Below, one piece after another: positions 146-11,224 of a stretch of DNA of 64,000 nucleotides; within the stretch, counting starts at the first letter, position 1; every line of letters starts with the position of its first letter. Both the position numbers and the translations under genes were made by a program. Origin of the DNA: Nocardioides sp. Root122 (lineage in GTDB: Bacteria; Actinomycetota; Actinomycetes; Propionibacteriales; Nocardioidaceae); NCBI RefSeq assembly GCF_001425025.1, contig NZ_LMDE01000001.1, positions 416,751-480,750 on the forward strand, in the 5' to 3' direction. The notes under the pieces are model-generated. The model did not search any database and was not told where the DNA came from. It saw only the letters and a program-made list of their open reading frames with translations.

Positions 146-2134
146 GTGGCGAGCGACCACGGTCGGGCCCGACGCTGGCGCGGCGTGCTGACCACTCCCG
201 TCGGTCTGACCGCCGCGGTGCTCCTGGTGGCGGTCGCCGTCCTCACCGTGCTGGGTCCGGTGCTGTGGGGGACGAGCGCCGACGCCGTCGACACCCGTGA
301 CGTGCTGGCCACGCCGTCGCCCGAGCACTGGGCGGGCACCGACAACCTCGGCCGCGACATCCTCGCGCGCACGCTGGTCGCGACCCGGCTCTCCATGGTG
401 CTCGCCGTGTGTGCGATCACCGTGGCCGTGGCGGCCGGGCTGCTGCTCGGCGCCGCGCCCTACCTCCTCGGCGGTCGCGCCGGTCGGCTCGTGTCCGCTG
501 CGGTCAACGTCGCGGTGGCGTTCCCGGGACTGCTGCTCGCCCTGTTCTTCGCCGTCGTGTTCGGCGTGGGTGCGACGGGTGCGGTGATGGCCGTCGGCCT
601 GGCCGGCGCGCCCGTCTTCGCCCGGCTCACCCAGACGCTCGTGGCGCAGGTGGCGGGACGCGACTACGTCTCGGCCGCCCGGGTCGCGGGCGTGGGCCGG
701 CTGCGGATCCTGCTCCGGCACGTGCTGCCCAACATCGCCGAGCCCCTGGTCGTCAACGCGACGATCGGTGCGGGCGGCGCGCTGCTCGCCTTCTCCGGTC
801 TGTCCTTCCTCGGCCTCGGCGTGCAGTCGCCGGCGTACGACTGGGGGCGGCTGCTCTACGACGGCATCAGCGCCATCTACGTCAACCCCGCCGCGGCGCT
901 GGCGCCGGGCCTTGCCGTGCTGCTCGCCGGGCTCGCCTTCAACCTCTTCGGCGAGTCCGTCGCCAAGGGCTTCGGGGTCCCGGTGCTGGTGGGCGCGCCC
1001 GAGCTGCGCAGCCGCGGCCGAGCGGCCGCCGCCGCAGCCGATGCCCCGACAGGGACGGACGGGGACCCGGACGAGGCCGCGGACGACGTCGTCCTGGAGG
1101 TCCGCGACCTCGAGGTGGTCTTCCCGACCGCGACCGGGACGGTGCGCCCGGTGCGCGGCGTCAGCTTCGACGTACGACGGGGTGAGGCGGTCGGGGTGGT
1201 GGGGGAGTCCGGGTCGGGCAAGTCGCTCACCGCCCTCGCCGTCTCCCGCCTCGTCAGCGAGGACGGCACGGTGCGCGCGGGGCGGCTCCGCTTCCTCGAC
1301 CAGGACCTCACCGCGCCGGACTCGCCCGCGCTGCGACGGATGCTCGGCACCAGCCTCGCGATGGTCTTCCAGGACCCGATGACGTCCTTCAACCCGACGC
1401 GGCGCATCGGCCGGCAGCTGGCCGAGGTGGCGACCGAGCACCAGGGACTCGGCCGGGCGGAGGCCCTGGGCCGGGCCGTGGACCGGCTCGACTCGGTGCG
1501 GATCCCCGACGCGGGCCGGCGTGCCCGCCAGTACCCCCACGAGTTCTCCGGCGGCATGCGCCAGCGGGCCATGATCGGCATGGGCCTGATGGGGACGCCC
1601 TCCCTCGTCGTCGCCGACGAGCCCACCACCGCGCTCGACGTGACCGTGCAGCAGCAGGTCCTCGACCTGCTCGCCGAGATCCGCGCGGCCGACGACGTCG
1701 CACTGGTGCTGATCAGCCACGACGTCACCGTCGTCGCCGAGGTCTGCGACCGCGTCCTGGTGATGTACGCCGGCCGCATCGTGGAGGACGTGTCCGCCGC
1801 CGGCCTCGCCACCCGCGCCCAGCACCCCTACACCCGCGCGCTCGTGGCCGCCGTGCCCCACATGGACACCGACCTCGACCAGCCGCTCGCCACCATCCCC
1901 GGCCGGCCCGTCGACCCGGCCGAGGTCCCCGCCGGCTGCGCGTACGCCGCCCGCTGCCCGCTGGCCGACGCCCGCTGCCGTGCCGAGGACCCGCCGCTCG
2001 TGGCCGCCGTCGACGGCAGCCGGGTCGCCTGCTGGCACGCCGGCGAGCCGCTCCCCGACCCGGTGGTGCGCACCGCCGAGGACCGCACGGGCCTCGACGC
2101 GCTGGACGCCGACGAGCTGGTGGAGGCACCGTGA
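146..2134 (+). CDS. Peptide ABC transporter permease/ATP-binding fusion (DppC-DppD)
   Basis: A 662-residue fusion. Residues about 15-280 form a DppC-type permease with five or six hydrophobic segments and the EAA-like loop (AARVAGVGRLRILLRHVLP). After a charged Ala/Asp-rich linker (about 285-315) comes a complete nucleotide-binding domain: Walker A GESGSGKS at 353-360, a signature FSGGMRQR, Walker B VVADEPTTALD and the switch histidine in LISHD. The C-terminus has the oligopeptide-transporter extension with clustered cysteines (GCAYAARCPLADARC). Permease and ATPase are usually separate genes; the fusion is intact, with no frameshift evident. It imports peptides with its neighbours. It overlaps the next gene by 4 bases (GTGA), so translation is coupled. 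Confidence 0.92.
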   Translation: MASDHGRARRWRGVLTTPVGLTAAVLLVAVAVLTVLGPVLWGTSADAVDTRDVLATPSPEHWAGTDNLGRDILARTLVATRLSMVLAVCAITVAVAAGLLLGAAPYLLGGRAGRLVSAAVNVAVAFPGLLLALFFAVVFGVGATGAVMAVGLAGAPVFARLTQTLVAQVAGRDYVSAARVAGVGRLRILLRHVLPNIAEPLVVNATIGAGGALLAFSGLSFLGLGVQSPAYDWGRLLYDGISAIYVNPAAALAPGLAVLLAGLAFNLFGESVAKGFGVPVLVGAPELRSRGRAAAAAADAPTGTDGDPDEAADDVVLEVRDLEVVFPTATGTVRPVRGVSFDVRRGEAVGVVGESGSGKSLTALAVSRLVSEDGTVRAGRLRFLDQDLTAPDSPALRRMLGTSLAMVFQDPMTSFNPTRRIGRQLAEVATEHQGLGRAEALGRAVDRLDSVRIPDAGRRARQYPHEFSGGMRQRAMIGMGLMGTPSLVVADEPTTALDVTVQQQVLDLLAEIRAADDVALVLISHDVTVVAEVCDRVLVMYAGRIVEDVSAAGLATRAQHPYTRALVAAVPHMDTDLDQPLATIPGRPVDPAEVPAGCAYAARCPLADARCRAEDPPLVAAVDGSRVACWHAGEPLPDPVVRTAEDRTGLDALDADELVEAP

Positions 2135-2877
2135 GCGAGCTGCGCTTCGAGGACGTCACCGTCCGCTTCGGCCGGACGACCGCCGTCGACCGGGTGAGCC
2201 TCACCGTGCCCGTCGGCACCGTGGTCGGTCTCGTGGGCGAGTCGGGGTCGGGCAAGTCGACCCTCGCCCGCGCCGCCGTCGGACTGACCGAGCCCGAGTC
2301 CGGCGCCATCACGCTCGGCGGTCGCCCGGTGCCCCACCGCGGCGCGCGACGCCCGCTCCAGATGGTCTTCCAGGACCCCTACTCCTCGCTCGACCCGCGC
2401 ATGTCGATCGGCGACAGCATCGCCGAGGCGCTGCCGCGTGACCTCGACGACGTACGCGGTCGCCGGGCCCGTCGCGACGAGGTGGCCCGGCTGCTGGAGC
2501 TCGTGCACCTCGACCCGCACCGGGCGCGGGACCTCCCGGCCCGGCTCTCCGGCGGTCAGCGCCAGCGGGTCGCCCTGGCCCGGGCGCTCGCAGGCCGACC
2601 GGAGGTCGTCATCGCGGACGAGATCACCTCCGCCCTCGACGTCTCGATCCAGGGCGCGGTGCTCAACCTGGTCCGTGAGCTGCAGGCCGAGCTCGGCCTC
2701 TCGATGCTCTTCATCTCCCACAACCTCGCCGTGGTCCGCTACGTCGCCTCACGCGTCGCCGTGATGCAGGGCGGCCGGATCGTCGAGGAGGGCCCCACGG
2801 CCCAGGTGCTCGGAGCCCCCGAGCACGACTACACGCGCGAGCTGCTCGCGGCCGCCCCCGGAAGGAAGCCCTCATGA
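2131..2877 (+). CDS. Peptide ABC transporter ATP-binding protein (DppF-like)
   Basis: A 248-residue ABC ATPase with Walker A GESGSGKST (about 35), Q-loop VFQDPYSSLDPR, signature LSGGQRQRV, Walker B VIADEITSALD and switch His in FISHN. It is the second ATPase of a Dpp/Opp importer and pairs with the ATPase half of the fusion upstream. It is shorter than typical DppF because the Cys-containing C-terminal oligopeptide extension is missing; only the fusion partner has that extension. GTG start overlaps the upstream stop by 4 bases, and its own stop overlaps the next ATG by 4 bases. Confidence 0.92.
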   Translation: MSELRFEDVTVRFGRTTAVDRVSLTVPVGTVVGLVGESGSGKSTLARAAVGLTEPESGAITLGGRPVPHRGARRPLQMVFQDPYSSLDPRMSIGDSIAEALPRDLDDVRGRRARRDEVARLLELVHLDPHRARDLPARLSGGQRQRVALARALAGRPEVVIADEITSALDVSIQGAVLNLVRELQAELGLSMLFISHNLAVVRYVASRVAVMQGGRIVEEGPTAQVLGAPEHDYTRELLAAAPGRKPS

Positions 2878-5800: not shown

Positions 5801-6203
5801 GCTCACCAACGGCGGGCACACCCGCGACCTCTACGAGGACCTCTACCGCGAGGTCTTCGCCGAGCTCGCGGGCGTCTCCATGCCCGAGCGGTTCGGTCCC
5901 CCCGACGAGCCGGTCGACGTCGACGTCACGCCCTTCCTGGGCCGCTACGAGCGCACGTCGGTGCAGATGGACGTCGAGGACTGCGCCGACGGACCGGTCC
6001 TCCGCACCACGCTCGTGGGTCCGCTGGCCGAGCTCGAGTCCGTCCCGGTCGAGGAACACCCGCTCGTGCCCGTGGGGCCCGGCCTGTTCGCCGTACGCCC
6101 GGAGGGGACCGAGACCTGGGTCCCGGTCACCTTCTACGAGCTGACCACGGGCGAGCCGTACCTCCACATGGGCGCACGCGCCACCCCGCAGGTCCGCCCA
6201 TGA
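2874..6203 (+). CDS. S9 prolyl oligopeptidase-type peptidase fused to a class C beta-lactamase-type serine hydrolase
   Basis: An 1109-residue two-enzyme fusion. Residues about 15-380 are a TolB/PD40-like propeller (repeated PxWSPDG elements). Residues about 395-640 are an S9 alpha/beta hydrolase with nucleophile Ser503 in GGYSYGG, Asp583 (GVEDRTCP) and His615 (DASHVF). Residues about 655-990 are a serine beta-lactamase/D-aminopeptidase fold with Ser710-x-x-Lys713 (SITK) and Tyr802-Cys-Asn804. A C-terminal beta-rich part ends the protein. All key residues of both active sites are present. No signal peptide is seen, so it should act in the cytoplasm on peptides imported by the transporter encoded upstream. 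The second domain's family includes D-amino-acid-specific peptidases, which fits the downstream D-to-L genes. Exact specificity cannot be read from sequence. Confidence 0.88.
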   Translation: MSHAPDTSDTSGAVRRLRIDDLGELAVPSQPALAPDGTRVAYTLRTIDVAGDRNVDELWWVGTDGGPARRLTHGPEDSSPVWAPDATRLAFVRAGRLAVLATDGGEVEVLDGVPTGVAAPTWSPDGRRLAFTAPVDPDGAGGGGPMVSDGIGYQSDGTGLHGRVRTQLFVVDADGTGLRRLTSGPHGVASPAWSPDGSTLAFTRGSEERFRTPVHVLAVDGSATDLRTVGFAHGVALAVTWSADGDALLVVGHPGDPVGHARLVRVPLDGSDVTDLAGALDRNVMPGAPAYPGGLPVEQEGRVWFCVRDRGCTHLWSASADGTEHQPLLAGEGRVVSGLSVAAARAAVVLATPTSYGEVVLVDLPDGQERVLTDHGAALADVVHHPRRARTFTISDGTEVEAWLLHDDEPGPKPLLLDVHGGPHNAWNAAADEIHLYHQELVERGWAVLLVNPRGSDGYGERFYDGVHAAWGVADAADFLEPIDALVAEGLADPARLAVGGYSYGGFMACWLTGHDDRFAAAVAGGTVSDLASMYGTSDDLCLSAYELGGAPWEEPDLYAAMSPITRVQDVRTPTLVYHGVEDRTCPLGQAQQWHTALCELGVPTRLVLYPDASHVFVLLGRPSQRLDVNRRTLDWLVTHTTGGGRPRADRAHWEQRLAALAERHGVPGAQLGILRTGGGEDDLVVATHGVLHVGTQAPVTPDAVFQIGSITKVWTASVVLALVDEGLLELDTPVVEVLPELRLADPEVTKGVTVRHLLTHTSGIDGDVFTDTGRGDDCLERYVDQLGDAGQNHPLGVTWSYCNSGFSLLGRVIEVVTGLTWDEAVRQRLSTPLGLERAVTLPEEALLHAAAVGHDERDGETVTAAAWQLPRSLGPAGLVTCSAADVLAFARMHLTGGRAADGTRVLSEESVTAMAAHEAELPDPYILGDSWGLGWIRFTWDEQRLIGHDGNTLGQAAFLRMLPDPDGDGGLAVVLLTNGGHTRDLYEDLYREVFAELAGVSMPERFGPPDEPVDVDVTPFLGRYERTSVQMDVEDCADGPVLRTTLVGPLAELESVPVEEHPLVPVGPGLFAVRPEGTETWVPVTFYELTTGEPYLHMGARATPQVRP

Positions 6204-7474
6204 GCCGCACGACCCTGGCGGCGGACGCCATCGACCTCGACGCCCTGCTCGACGACGTCCGCACGCTCGTCGAGTGCGAGTCTCCGTCCGCCGACCTCGC
6301 CGCCGTCGCACGCTCGGCGGATGTGGTGGCCGAGGTCGGCACGCGCCGGCTGGGCGTGGCGCCCGAGCGGATCGTGCTCGAGGGCTGCACCCACCTGCGG
6401 TGGCGGCTGGGCAGCGCACCCTCACGCGTCCTGCTGCTCGGCCACCACGACACGGTCTGGCCCGTCGGCACGCTGGCCCGGCGTCCCTTCGCCGTCGACG
6501 ACGGCGTGCTCCGCGGCCCGGGCTGCTTCGACATGCTCACCGGCCTGGCCATGGCGTTCCAGGCCGCTGCCGGGACGGACGGGGTCACCCTCCTCGTCAC
6601 CGGCGACGAGGAGCTCGGCTCGCCCACCTCGCGGGCACTGGTGGAGGAGGAGGGCGCTGCTGCCGAGGCGGTGCTCGTCCTCGAGGCCTCGGCCGACGGC
6701 GGCGCGCTGAAGACCGAGCGCAAGGGCGTCTCGTTGTACGACGTCGACGTGACCGGCCGCGCCGCCCACGCCGGGCTCGAGCCCGAGAGGGGCACCAACG
6801 CCGCCGTCGAGCTCGCCCACGTCGTGCTCGCGCTGTCCGGCCTCGGCGACGCCTCGGTCGGTACGACGGTGACGCCGACCCGCGCCACCGCAGGCACCAC
6901 CACGAACACCGTGCCCGCCGCGGCGAGCGTCGCGGTCGACGTACGCGCGCGGACGGCCGAGGAGCAGCGGCGCGTGGACGCCGCCGTCCGGTCCCTGCGC
7001 CCGGTGCTGCCCGGCGCCGGGCTCGCCGTGCGCGGCGGGCCCAACCGGCCGCCGCTGGAGGCGTCGGCCTCCGCCGCCCTCTTCGACCGGGCGTGCGAGG
7101 TCGCCGCCCGGATGGGCCTCCCGGACCTCACCAGTGCGAGCGTCGGCGGTGCGTCCGACGGCAACTTCACCGCCGGGGTCGGCACCCCCACCCTCGACGG
7201 GCTGGGCGCGGTCGGCGGCGGGGCCCATGCCGAGGACGAGCACGTGCTGGTCGCCGAGCTCCCCGGCCGCACCGCCCTCCTCTGCGCCCTGGTCGCCGAC
7301 CTCCTCGGTACTCCCCTACGTTCTGGACGCGGTGGTGCAGGACGTAGGGGACTACCGGACGGGGCAGACCTGGGTAGTCCCCTACGTTCTGGACGCGGTG
7401 GTGCAGAACGTAGGGGACTACGGCTGGACGAGCGGACGAACCCGGACGCCCCGACTGGTGGGGCACGACCATGA
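6200..7474 (+). CDS. M20 family metallohydrolase, candidate N-succinyl-L-amino acid desuccinylase
   Basis: A 424-residue M20/carboxypeptidase-G2-like enzyme. Zinc and catalytic residues are visible: H and D in LLLGHHDTV (about 79-87), D in GPGCFDMLTG, the EE pair in TGDEELGS, and a late His in GGGAHAEDE. The dimerisation segment has AAHAGLEPERGTNA. The normal family end falls near residue 369; the last 54 residues are low-complexity and come from a palindromic repeat inserted in the 3' end (PLRSGRGGA appears twice). It overlaps both neighbours by ATGA junctions. With the next two genes it completes the set racemase, N-succinyltransferase and desuccinylase. The M20 assignment is firm; the desuccinylase role is inferred from context. 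Confidence 0.87.
   Translation: MSRTTLAADAIDLDALLDDVRTLVECESPSADLAAVARSADVVAEVGTRRLGVAPERIVLEGCTHLRWRLGSAPSRVLLLGHHDTVWPVGTLARRPFAVDDGVLRGPGCFDMLTGLAMAFQAAAGTDGVTLLVTGDEELGSPTSRALVEEEGAAAEAVLVLEASADGGALKTERKGVSLYDVDVTGRAAHAGLEPERGTNAAVELAHVVLALSGLGDASVGTTVTPTRATAGTTTNTVPAAASVAVDVRARTAEEQRRVDAAVRSLRPVLPGAGLAVRGGPNRPPLEASASAALFDRACEVAARMGLPDLTSASVGGASDGNFTAGVGTPTLDGLGAVGGGAHAEDEHVLVAELPGRTALLCALVADLLGTPLRSGRGGAGRRGLPDGADLGSPLRSGRGGAERRGLRLDERTNPDAPTGGARP
7308..7421 (+). repeat. Tandem pair of long-arm palindromes inside the M20 gene 3' end
   Basis: Two 48-base units at 7308-7355 and 7374-7421, repeating with a 66-base period. The second has perfect 18-base arms (GTAGTCCCCTACGTTCTG and its complement) around the loop GACGCGGTGGTG. 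The first has the same loop and two arm mismatches. The reading frame passes through both, adding about 50 residues to the M20 protein. Confidence 0.93.
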
Positions 7475-8379
7475 CGCTGCCCCGCAAGGCGACCAGCATG
7501 GGAGCCATGAGGACGTCGAGCGCTGTCGCCACCGACCTCGACGCCGCGGTCCAGGGGGCCGACGCCGCCGCCCGCGCGGCGGGGGTCACCGTGCGCAGCC
7601 TGGAGGACCTGCCCGACCTCGAGCAGGCGGTCGCGCTGTTCGCCGACATCTGGCGGCGTGAGGCGAGCCCGCCGCTCACCCTCGAGCTGCTGCGCGCCCT
7701 CACGAAGGCGGGGAACTACGTCGGCGGTGCCTTCGTCGACGGTCGCCTCGTCGGGGCGTGCGTCGGCTTCTTCCACGCGCCCGAGGAGGACAGCCTCCAC
7801 AGCCACATCGCCGGCGTCGCGCCCGGTGCCGCCGGGCGCAACATCGGGTTCGCCCTCAAGCTCCACCAGCGCGCGTGGGCGATCGGCCGCGGCGTCGGGG
7901 AGATCGCGTGGACCTTCGACCCGCTCGTGGCCCGCAACGCCTGGTTCAACCTGACCAAGCTCGGCGCCAGCGCGACGGAGTACCTCCCCAACTTCTACGG
8001 GCCGATGGACGACGGCATCAACGGTCGCGACGAGTCGGACCGACTGCTGGTGCGCTGGCGGCTGACCGACCCCGCGGTCGTGCTGGCCTGCGCCGGCGGC
8101 GGCGTCGGCGCGGTCGCGGACGACCTGCGGGCAGGTGGCGCCATCGTCGCCCTCGGCTCCGACGAGGCGGGCCGGCCTGTCCCGGGCCGCCTCGACGGGC
8201 CCGTCTCACTGGTCGCGGTGCCCTCGGACGTCGCGCTCCTGCGCGGCGCCGACCCGGAGACCGCCGCCCGCTGGCGGATCGCCGTGCGCGAGGCGCTCAC
8301 CGCCCTGCTGACCGACGGGGCAGGGCGCATCGAGGGGTTCGACCGGGCAGGTTGGTACGTCGTGAGGAGAGAGCTGTGA
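7471..8379 (+). CDS. GNAT-family acyltransferase, candidate succinyl-CoA:amino acid N-succinyltransferase
   Basis: A 302-residue protein of the large GNAT group that is often encoded next to OSBS/NSAR-type enolase-superfamily genes. Features include a substrate-side strand NYVGGAFVDGRLVGACVGFF, the acyl-CoA-binding region around HSHIAGVAPGAAGRNIGFALKL, and the following segment WTFDPLVARNAWFNLTKLGA with Y-L-P-N-F-Y-G. In the known D-to-L route it would succinylate D-amino acids so that the racemase can epimerise them. The start chosen is ATG 7471, overlapping the M20 stop (ATGA); an internal ATG at 7501 or 7507 is possible because the first dozen residues are not family-like. Family assignment is strong, substrate is inferred. 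Confidence 0.85.
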   Translation: MTLPRKATSMGAMRTSSAVATDLDAAVQGADAAARAAGVTVRSLEDLPDLEQAVALFADIWRREASPPLTLELLRALTKAGNYVGGAFVDGRLVGACVGFFHAPEEDSLHSHIAGVAPGAAGRNIGFALKLHQRAWAIGRGVGEIAWTFDPLVARNAWFNLTKLGASATEYLPNFYGPMDDGINGRDESDRLLVRWRLTDPAVVLACAGGGVGAVADDLRAGGAIVALGSDEAGRPVPGRLDGPVSLVAVPSDVALLRGADPETAARWRIAVREALTALLTDGAGRIEGFDRAGWYVVRREL

Positions 8380-9482
8380 AGATCACCGGCGTCGAGCTGC
8401 GACGCATCGCCATGCCCCTGGTGGCGCCGTTCCGGACGTCGTTCGGCACCGAGACCGCGCGCGACGTGCTCCTCGTGCGTGTCGTGTCGGAGGACTCCGA
8501 GGGCTGGGGGGAGTGCGTGGCGATGTCCGCGCCCCTCTACAGCTCGGAGTACGTCGACGCGGCCGCCGATGTGCTGCGCCGCTACCTGGTGCCCCGCCTG
8601 GTCGCCGACGGCCCGTGCTCGGCGCCCGACGTGGCGCACCGGTTGGCACCGGTGAAGGGCCACCGCATGGCGAAGGCGGCGCTCGAGACGGCGGTGCTGG
8701 ACGCCGAGCTCCGGGCCGAGGGCCGGTCCTTCGCACGCGAGCTCGGTGCGGTGCACGACCGCGTGCCGTGCGGGGTGTCGGTCGGGATCATGGACTCCGT
8801 GCCCGCGTTGCTCGACGCCGTCGACGGCTACCTCGCCGAGGGCTACGTGCGGATCAAGCTGAAGATCGAGCCCGGCTGGGACGTCGACCCGGTGCGGGCG
8901 GTGCGCGAGCGCTTCGGCGACGACGTGCTGCTCCAGGTCGACGCCAACACCGCCTACTCGCTCGCCGACGCGCCCCACCTCGCGCGGCTCGACCCCTTCG
9001 ACCTGCTGCTGATCGAGCAGCCGCTGGAGGAGGAGGACGTGCTCGGCCACGCCGACCTGGCCCGCCGGATCCGGACGCCGGTGTGCCTCGACGAGTCGAT
9101 CACCTCCGCGCGCGACGCCGCGGCAGCCATCCGCCTGGGCGCCTGCAGCATCGTCAACATCAAGCCCGGCCGCGTCGGCGGCTACCTCGAGGCGCGACGC
9201 ATCCACGACGTCTGCGTGGCCGCCGGCGTACCGGTGTGGTGCGGCGGGATGCTCGAGACCGGTCTCGGGCGGGCGGCCAACGTCGCCCTCGCGGCGCTGC
9301 CGGGCTTCACCCTCCCCGGCGACACGTCCGGTTCGGGCCGCTACTACGCCGAGGACATCACCGAGCCGTTCGTGCTCGACGACGGCCACCTCGCCGTCCC
9401 GACCGGGGCGGGCCTCGGGGTCGCCCCGCTGCCCGACCGCCTCGAGGAGGTCACCACCGCGACGGAGTGGCTCGCCCTCTGA
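8376..9482 (+). CDS. menC: o-Succinylbenzoate synthase / N-succinylamino acid racemase (enolase superfamily)
   Basis: A 368-residue enolase-superfamily protein with every catalytic residue of the OSBS/NSAR group: Lys161-x-Lys163 (IKLKIEPG), metal ligands Asp189 (VDANT), Glu214 (IEQPL) and Asp239 (LDESI), and Lys263 (NIKPG). These sit at nearly the same positions as in the characterised actinobacterial NSAR. No other menaquinone gene is nearby, while an M20 hydrolase and GNAT acyltransferase are directly upstream in one coupled operon (GTGA overlap). N-succinylamino acid racemase is therefore more likely than a menaquinone role. The symbol reflects family only. OSBS activity as a side or main activity cannot be excluded from sequence. 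Confidence 0.88.
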   Translation: MKITGVELRRIAMPLVAPFRTSFGTETARDVLLVRVVSEDSEGWGECVAMSAPLYSSEYVDAAADVLRRYLVPRLVADGPCSAPDVAHRLAPVKGHRMAKAALETAVLDAELRAEGRSFARELGAVHDRVPCGVSVGIMDSVPALLDAVDGYLAEGYVRIKLKIEPGWDVDPVRAVRERFGDDVLLQVDANTAYSLADAPHLARLDPFDLLLIEQPLEEEDVLGHADLARRIRTPVCLDESITSARDAAAAIRLGACSIVNIKPGRVGGYLEARRIHDVCVAAGVPVWCGGMLETGLGRAANVALAALPGFTLPGDTSGSGRYYAEDITEPFVLDDGHLAVPTGAGLGVAPLPDRLEEVTTATEWLAL

Positions 9483-9565: not shown

Positions 9566-11224
9566 ATGAGCGACGAGGCGGCGGGCGCGAGCCTCGCGCG
9601 GCTGCTGGACGACCTGGGTACGACGTTCCTCGACCTCGCCCACGGTGACGTGTCAGCCGCGCGCGGCATCGGCGGGGTCGTCATCCACGACCCGCTCGAC
9701 CCGCCGTCGCTGCCGCCCCGCGCGATCGTGCTCGGCGTCGGGGTCGACTCCGCCGCCCAGGTGGTCGAGCTGCTCCGTGGCCTCGGCCCCGGGGGTGCGG
9801 CCGGCCTGGTGCTGCGGGCTCCCGTCCCGCTCACCGCCGAGGTGCGCGCTGCCGCCGACGAGGCCGGGGTCGCCGTGCTCGGCCTCAGCCGTGGCGCGTC
9901 GTGGGCCCAGCTGAGCGAGATGCTCCGGTCGCTGCTTGTCGCGGGGGACACCGGTCCGGCCACCGGCGAGCCCGACTCGCTCGGCGGTCTGCCTTCGGGC
10001 GACCTGTTCGCGGTCGCCAACGCGCTGTCGGCCCTGCTCGACGCGCCGATCACCATCGAGGACCGCAGCTCGCGCGTGCTGGCGTTCTCAGGGCGACAGG
10101 ACGAGGCCGACCCCTCGCGGGTCGAGACGATCCTCGGCCGTCAGGTGCCGGGGCACTACATGAAGGTGCTGCAGGAGCGCGGCGTCTTCCGCGACCTCCA
10201 CCGCTCCGACCGGCCGGTCGTCGTCGACCCGTTGCCGGGCGTCGACGGGGAGATGACGCTGCCCCGGGTGGCGGTGTCCGTGCGCGCCGGTGACGAGGTG
10301 CTCGGGTCGATCTGGGCGGTCGTCCCGGAGCCGTTGAGCCCCGAGCGCCTCGGCGCGCTCACCGACTCCGCCAAGCTCGTGGCGCTGCACCTGCTGCGGG
10401 TGCGTGCCGGCGCCGACGTACGCCGCGGGGTGCGCGCCGACCTCCTCGCCTCCGCCCTCGCCGGCGGCGCCTCCGCCCCCGACGCGCTCGAGCGCCTCGG
10501 GCTCGCCGGGCAGCCCCTGCTGGTGGTCGGGATGACCCTCGACGAGGTGCACGCGGTCGGGCACGACATCGACGACGCGTCGCTCACCCACGAGCGGCAG
10601 CGGCTCGGCGACGCGTTCGCGCTGCACCTCGCCGCGGTCCACCCGCGCTCGGCGGCCGCGTCCCTGGGCGACGTGACCTACGGGCTCCTGGCGATCTCCG
10701 GCGAGGTCGACCTCGCCGAGGAGCGGGCGACGCGACTGGTGCGCGACTTCATCGACCGGATCGGCGAGCGGATGCGGCCGGTCGCCGCGGTCGGCACCGT
10801 CGCCGCCGACTTCTCGGGCATCGCGCGCAGCCGCACCAGCGTCGACCGGGCGCTGCGGGTGCTGCGCCGCGGCGGGGGCGAGCGCCGCATCGGCCGGCTC
10901 GAGGACCTCCAGGGCGAGGCGCTCGTGCTCGAGCTGCAGGACCTCGCCTCGGCCCGCGGCGACGAGCCGACCGGGCCGCTCGCCCGCCTCGTGGCGTACG
11001 ACGCCCGGCACCGCTCCGCGCTCGTCGACACCCTGCGGGCGTGGCTCGACCACTTCGGCGACGCGGTCGCCGCGGCCGACTCGCTCTTCGTCCACCCCAA
11101 CACCTTCCGCTACCGCCTCCGCCGCGCTGCCGAGGTCGGCCGGGTCGACCTCGACGACGCCGACCAGCGGTTCGCGCTGATGCTGCAGCTGCGGGTGCTG
11201 ACCGCTCCGTCCGGATCGCGCTGA
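9566..11224 (+). CDS. PucR/CdaR-family transcriptional regulator
   Basis: A 552-residue regulator. The N-terminal region (about 1-150) is a PucR-like sensing domain, the middle (about 150-300) a GAF-like region, and the C-terminus (about 485-545) the PucR helix-turn-helix with the family motif around FVHPNTFRYRLRRAAEVG. This group usually responds to small metabolites such as purine breakdown products, proline, GABA or sugar acids. It lies directly downstream of the peptide/D-amino acid operon and is the obvious candidate for its control, although no operator can be identified. Start ATG 9566 is supported by a leaderless -10 element 6 bases upstream. Confidence 0.9.
   Translation: MSDEAAGASLARLLDDLGTTFLDLAHGDVSAARGIGGVVIHDPLDPPSLPPRAIVLGVGVDSAAQVVELLRGLGPGGAAGLVLRAPVPLTAEVRAAADEAGVAVLGLSRGASWAQLSEMLRSLLVAGDTGPATGEPDSLGGLPSGDLFAVANALSALLDAPITIEDRSSRVLAFSGRQDEADPSRVETILGRQVPGHYMKVLQERGVFRDLHRSDRPVVVDPLPGVDGEMTLPRVAVSVRAGDEVLGSIWAVVPEPLSPERLGALTDSAKLVALHLLRVRAGADVRRGVRADLLASALAGGASAPDALERLGLAGQPLLVVGMTLDEVHAVGHDIDDASLTHERQRLGDAFALHLAAVHPRSAAASLGDVTYGLLAISGEVDLAEERATRLVRDFIDRIGERMRPVAAVGTVAADFSGIARSRTSVDRALRVLRRGGGERRIGRLEDLQGEALVLELQDLASARGDEPTGPLARLVAYDARHRSALVDTLRAWLDHFGDAVAAADSLFVHPNTFRYRLRRAAEVGRVDLDDADQRFALMLQLRVLTAPSGSR

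Follow-up and report, generated by a model that had tools for sequence, protein, structure and literature searches.

A conserved actinobacterial operon with a predicted N-succinylamino acid racemase, probably serving the catabolism of peptides with D-residues

We analysed a 64,000-nucleotide stretch of the genome of Nocardioides sp. Root122 (contig NZ_LMDE01000001.1, positions 416,751 to 480,750 of the forward strand; hereafter the window), in which three consecutive genes encode an M20 metallohydrolase, a GNAT acyltransferase and a member of the N-succinylamino acid racemase/o-succinylbenzoate synthase (NSAR/OSBS) subfamily of the enolase superfamily (Table 1). An earlier description made from the DNA letters only, here called the sequence-only reading, had reported that the three genes are joined by ATGA and GTGA overlaps and that the enolase-superfamily protein carries K161-x-K163, D189, E214, D239 and K263. 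Both statements were confirmed: the gene coordinates are as given, the overlaps lie at 6200-6203 (ATGA), 7471-7474 (ATGA) and 8376-8379 (GTGA), and all six active-site residues are exactly at the named positions, together with R266, which we list with the catalytic residues of the subfamily. The trio is only the 3' part of an operon that starts about 4 kb before the window, and the three window genes upstream of it are coupled by overlaps in the same way. The sequence-only reading was right about the trio and missed the wider operon, namely the stand-alone S12 hydrolase, the substrate-binding protein, the Dpp-type transporter, the S9+S12 fusion and the PucR regulator.

Table 1. Genes of the operon. 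Coordinates are window positions unless given for L009, the locus that includes the DNA before the window; ABC, ATP-binding cassette.
Feature	Position	Strand	Matches and remarks
Stand-alone S12 hydrolase	L009 11814-13202, before window		
Peptide substrate-binding protein	L009 13235-14869, just before window		
DppB-type permease	L009 14874-15893, just before window		
DppC-type permease fused to DppD-type ATPase (peptide ABC transporter)	146-2134	+	Pfam BPD_transp_1, ABC_tran, oligo_HPY; top NCBIfam models come from Opp/Dpp transporter families
DppF/OppF-type ATPase	2131-2877	+	Pfam ABC_tran; oligopeptide transporter models; GTGA overlap with preceding gene
S9 prolyl-oligopeptidase-family and S12 beta-lactamase-fold fusion, 1109 aa	2874-6203	+	Pfam Peptidase_S9 (residues 441-641), Beta-lactamase (655-990)
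M20 metallohydrolase, carboxypeptidase G2-like; putative L-specific N-succinyl-amino acid desuccinylase	6200-7474	+	Pfam Peptidase_M20, M20_dimer; PDB match carboxypeptidase G2
GNAT acyltransferase; putative amino acid N-succinyltransferase	7471-8379 (alternative ATG 7507)	+	Pfam PF13480, PF00583
Predicted N-succinylamino acid racemase (NSAR/OSBS subfamily), 368 aa, GTG start	8376-9482	+	TIGR01928; MR_MLE N and C domains
PucR/CdaR-type transcriptional regulator, probable operon controller	9566-11224	+	Pfam HTH_30; adjoins trio on same strand in 67 of 80 loci

The arrangement of the trio is not due to chance. An alignment search with the GNAT independently yielded 80 GNAT-centred loci from named actinobacteria of many orders; NSAR was adjacent, directly downstream, in 77 of these loci, M20 in 69, both in 68, PucR in 67 and an S12 domain in 52. 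A second set, of 40 loci of the family, was centred on NSAR, with some genomes shared between the two sets, and GNAT adjoined NSAR on the same strand in 36 of them. We also sampled 246 genomes class-wide; the GNAT occurred in 60 of them, every one of which was among the 74 with NSAR (hypergeometric 3e-44, phylogeny ignored), and NSAR lay directly downstream at 49 out of 69 GNAT places. An M20 homologue was found in each of the ten genomes in which the trio was broken or cut by a contig end; nine of these homologues were 59-76% identical and the tenth 42%, and in locus L119, the homologue found was the M20 of the cluster itself. The stretch fetched from Umezawaea tangerina (L092) held a transporter-S9-S12-GNAT-PucR operon without NSAR and M20, and an M20 homologue (70%) was located elsewhere in that genome. 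Automatic annotation calls essentially all of the NSAR genes that we examined 'menC: o-succinylbenzoate synthase', even those in clear GNAT/peptidase clusters, and this naming is a systematic misannotation of a large gene group.

The window NSAR is 75% identical over its full length to the NSAR/OSBS of Amycolatopsis sp. T-1-60 (PDB 1sja). Phylogenetic analysis placed the two proteins in the same supported actinobacterial clade (98/96), and the MenC of the genome itself fell well away from it, on a long branch; the placement of the long-branch rows (own MenC, the C10 paralogue, L079 and Nitratireductor) is uncertain and was not used. The protein scored 306.7 bits (cut-off 200.65) with TIGR01928, an NCBIfam model named o-succinylbenzoate synthase, as would be expected if it were the OSBS of menaquinone synthesis (MenC), as annotated automatically, with its neighbours being incidental. 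The same explanation gains from a relative, 45% identical to 1sja, in record L174 (NZ_CP100662.1, 'Pseudomonas fluorescens' plasmid pZL222), where an NSAR/OSBS-type menC is part of a complete men operon; the record also has cspD and a sporulation gene of the yteA family and appears to be a fragment of a genome of the Bacillus type. The subfamily can thus serve menaquinone, which makes genomic context important.

In Nocardioides sp. Root122, that context contradicts a menaquinone role. The sequence-only reading had proposed that the window "menC" is not for menaquinone, unless the men pathway of the genome proved complete but for this gene. Instead, a separate MenC is encoded at C9:234009-234938 (451 bits with the actinobacterial MenC model NF002782, cut-off 288) and is followed directly by MenD at C9:234974, so the window gene is not needed for menaquinone; it reached only 76.7 bits with the same model. 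MqnC was not found in the genome. Among the 74 NSAR genomes of the class-wide sample, 60 had an NF002782 MenC and 14 did not, with no significant association (Fisher p 0.08), and MqnC was over its cut-off in 8 of these 14, which indicates that NSAR does not track a need for OSBS. Neither the NF002782 MenC nor MqnC passed in genomes G307, G363, G407, G423, G537 and G549, in which NSAR might supply OSBS if MenD is present. MenC also adjoins MenD in Nonomuraea gerenzanensis, in which NSAR and GNAT lie apart. Taking the MenC-MenD pair and the distribution of NSAR together, we regard a menaquinone role for the window gene as extremely improbable.

The genus g42 (genomes G423, G307 and G407; loci L186, L187 and L189) showed a different pattern, with NSAR apart from GNAT and following a GntP-type permease; a metallo-beta-lactamase-fold gene also precedes NSAR in L187 and probably in L189. 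Neither an NF002782 MenC nor MqnC was over the cut-off in the three genomes, and their NSAR may act as OSBS. A move of NSAR into a men operon was considered for this genus and rejected: the preceding genes are those just named, and no men genes were recognised nearby.

These results bear on a well-known enzyme. The Amycolatopsis protein serves as a textbook case of both catalytic promiscuity and misannotation, taken first for an N-acylamino acid racemase and then for OSBS in biology; a review gives OSBS as the function that is biologically relevant (PMC4215206). In A. orientalis DSM 43388 (L134), the NSAR, which is 97.3% identical to 1sja, has M20, GNAT and PucR as neighbours, and an own MenC was over the cut-off in all eight Amycolatopsis genomes searched. 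Because of this M20-GNAT-PucR context and the separate MenC, the published OSBS role looks wrong, judging from the genome sequences, and the context points to racemase as the activity selected in actinobacteria. Later specialist papers may already have left the OSBS view.

Both partner proteins have features that would suit acylation and deacylation of amino acids. The best PDB match of the M20 protein was carboxypeptidase G2 (CPG2; 119 bits), and equivalents of CPG2 H112, D114, D141, E175, E176, E200, H229, N275, R288, R324 and H385 are all kept; we take the zinc ligands and the catalytic glutamate to be among H112, D141, E175, E176, E200 and H385. Every predicted zinc, catalytic and carboxylate-binding position compared with CPG2 is thus retained. 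The confident AlphaFold model of the GNAT (predicted local distance difference test score, pLDDT, 92.5) had among its nearest structures several phosphinothricin N-acetyltransferases, as well as protein N-acetyltransferases and other GNATs, with only about half of the chain covered. Phosphinothricin N-acetyltransferases acylate a free amino acid, and this match would suit an amino acid substrate. Viral contigs searched with the GNAT gave no match.

A near-perfect palindrome in two copies (TAGTCCCCTACGTTCTG...CAGAACGTAGGGGACTA) lies within the 3' end of the M20 gene, at window positions 7310-7423 (folding z-score -9.6); the M20 protein has 424 aa, and its closest relative (L040) has 389. Across the genome, 44 copies of the half-site were counted, arranged as pairs or short arrays, compared with 0 occurrences of a reversed control, and the palindromes are a dispersed REP-like family. 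At L175 (G000:C9:259000-262100), half-site arrays, four facing one way and two the opposite way, lie about 1.2 kb apart around an open reading frame (ORF) of 350 aa (1114-2166).

The acyl group could be other than succinyl. The nearest GNAT structures are acetyltransferases, and the substrates of NSAR enzymes include N-acetyl amino acids as well as others with different N-acyl groups (PMC8142540, PMC7431475), so the same chemistry might run with acetyl-coenzyme A (acetyl-CoA) or a different acyl-CoA. The parallel would be the DgcN-DgcA route, which turns D-Glu into L-Glu (PMC10845958). Two results speak against this alternative, which we consider unlikely. The kcat/Km of the Amycolatopsis T-1-60 enzyme is about 42,000 M-1 s-1 on N-succinyl-phenylglycine versus 350-1,111 on N-acetyl-methionine, at least about 40-fold better on the succinyl substrate, though the amino acids compared differ (PMC8142540, table). 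The window NSAR scored only 93.3 bits with the model for the N-acetyl-D-Glu racemase DgcA (NF042940), for which the cut-off is 400.

The genes upstream of the trio suggest where the amino acids would come from. The S9+S12 fusion carries the S9 motif GYSYGG at residue 501 and the S12 motifs SITK, YCN and HDGN at 710, 802 and 949, respectively. S9 and S12 were fused in one ORF in 72 loci, and eight loci had an S12 gene without S9. No signal peptide was seen by eye at the N-terminus of the fusion or of the stand-alone S12 hydrolase, and intracellular cleavage of imported peptides would therefore fit. PDB relatives of the S12 domain include alkaline D-peptidase (4y7p), a DD-carboxypeptidase and a D-amino acid amidase, all enzymes acting at D-residues. 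The domain did not pass the S12 D-aminopeptidase model PRK13128 (49.6 bits, cut-off 443), though the SxxK, YxN and HDG motifs are present.

We put the probability at roughly three in four that this is a catabolic operon for peptides with D-residues, acting by import, cleavage, N-succinylation, racemisation and L-specific desuccinylation. The Dpp-type ABC transporter would import peptides, and their cleavage would fall to the cytoplasmic S9+S12 fusion together with the stand-alone S12 hydrolase, freeing amino acids that include D-forms. The GNAT would then N-acylate the amino acid, most likely with succinyl-CoA, and the NSAR would racemise the N-succinyl-amino acid through K163 and K263, with a divalent metal held by D189, E214 and D239. 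Finally, the CPG2-like M20 protein would hydrolyse the L-form alone, which would draw the D-form over to L and return succinate for reuse, and the PucR-type regulator would control the operon.

Several observations weigh against this reading. Because the loci share ancestry, the counts suggest more independent cases than there are. The M20 protein is below the cut-off of the NCBIfam glutamate carboxypeptidase model NF004788 (213 bits versus 349) and is not orthologous to the M20 proteins of Bacillota clusters, with 30% identity over 82 residues to that of Cytobacillus and no match to that of Lysinibacillus. The best PDB matches of the S12 domain are proteins deposited as IS11 and as an alpha/beta hydrolase, not D-peptidases. 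In some loci (for example, L121, L130 and L155), no transporter or S12/S9 genes lie near the trio on the same strand, so peptides may not be the only source.

The operon might also run in reverse or have another purpose, either making D-amino acids or degrading external N-acyl-amino acids or amides, with the GNAT merely a protective acyltransferase. The racemase is reversible, Deinococcus clusters hold a predicted D-aminoacylase, and M20 and NSAR occur without an annotated GNAT in some clusters (Cytobacillus L169), all of which would agree with such a purpose. However, the peptide importer, the peptidases and the PucR regulator point to catabolism, and substrates that are already acylated need no GNAT, yet each sampled genome with the GNAT has NSAR; we therefore hold these alternatives to be quite improbable. 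Under the catabolic reading, the operon points to a possible recycling of D-amino acid peptides by soil bacteria, with cell walls and peptide antibiotics as examples of sources. With somewhat less confidence, we think it likely that this is a dedicated D-peptide utilisation operon conserved across Actinomycetota, with import, hydrolysis and stereo-inversion combined in a single transcription unit, that the Amycolatopsis NSAR/OSBS is physiologically an NSAR, and that the deacylase was recruited from an M20 subfamily other than that used in Bacillota.

Our searches of the open literature found no text uniting NSAR, a succinyltransferase and a desuccinylase, and no D-amino acid catabolic route with an S12 D-aminopeptidase for actinobacteria. 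Sakai et al. reportedly described in 2006 that a succinyltransferase, an NSAR and an L-specific desuccinylase convert D- to L-amino acids irreversibly in Geobacillus kaustophilus, and the sequence-only reading had proposed a D-to-L conversion set of this kind here. The same three activities are proposed for the window, and the comparison was made through other Bacillota clusters. At the genome level the proposal holds in that the trio is strongly conserved and clusters of Bacillota and Deinococcus contain homologous GNAT-NSAR pairs; it does not extend to the M20 protein as an orthologue, and we infer the substrates (including their D-peptide nature), the succinyl group, the stereospecificity and the D-to-L direction. 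Lysinibacillus (L164) has a peptide transporter, M20, GNAT and NSAR in the same order as Nocardioides, and a Priestia cluster has an amidohydrolase, GNAT and NSAR. The window GNAT is 26.5% identical to the Lysinibacillus GNAT (E 9e-22) and 30% identical to the Priestia GNAT (E 2e-38), both of which adjoin NSAR. The M20 proteins of the Bacillota clusters belong to the TIGR01891 group, a different NCBIfam subfamily from the CPG2-like window protein; as the two are not orthologues, at least two recruitments of a deacylase would have taken place, provided that both proteins have this function. A further difference is that the trio here ends a peptide-uptake and hydrolysis operon with a PucR regulator.

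The plasmid-borne Deinococcus clusters (L161, L162 and L168) likewise bring together NSAR, GNAT, two peptide-type permeases, a binding protein and S12 hydrolases. They differ in that the stretches fetched showed no M20 but a D-aminoacylase or another amidohydrolase, with a membrane dipeptidase added in D. ficus, and in that the homologues are only 33-47% identical (33-35% for the GNATs). The DgcN-DgcA system resembles the window operon in converting a D- to an L-amino acid through an enolase-superfamily N-acyl racemase (PMC10845958; NCBIfam name N-acetyl-D-Glu racemase), but that racemase is only distantly related, and the window operon additionally includes a deacylase, peptidases and a transporter for peptides. 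The Amycolatopsis T-1-60 NSAR/OSBS has the same catalytic residues as the window NSAR, including R266, and its near-identical DSM 43388 copy has the same M20-GNAT-NSAR-PucR neighbours.

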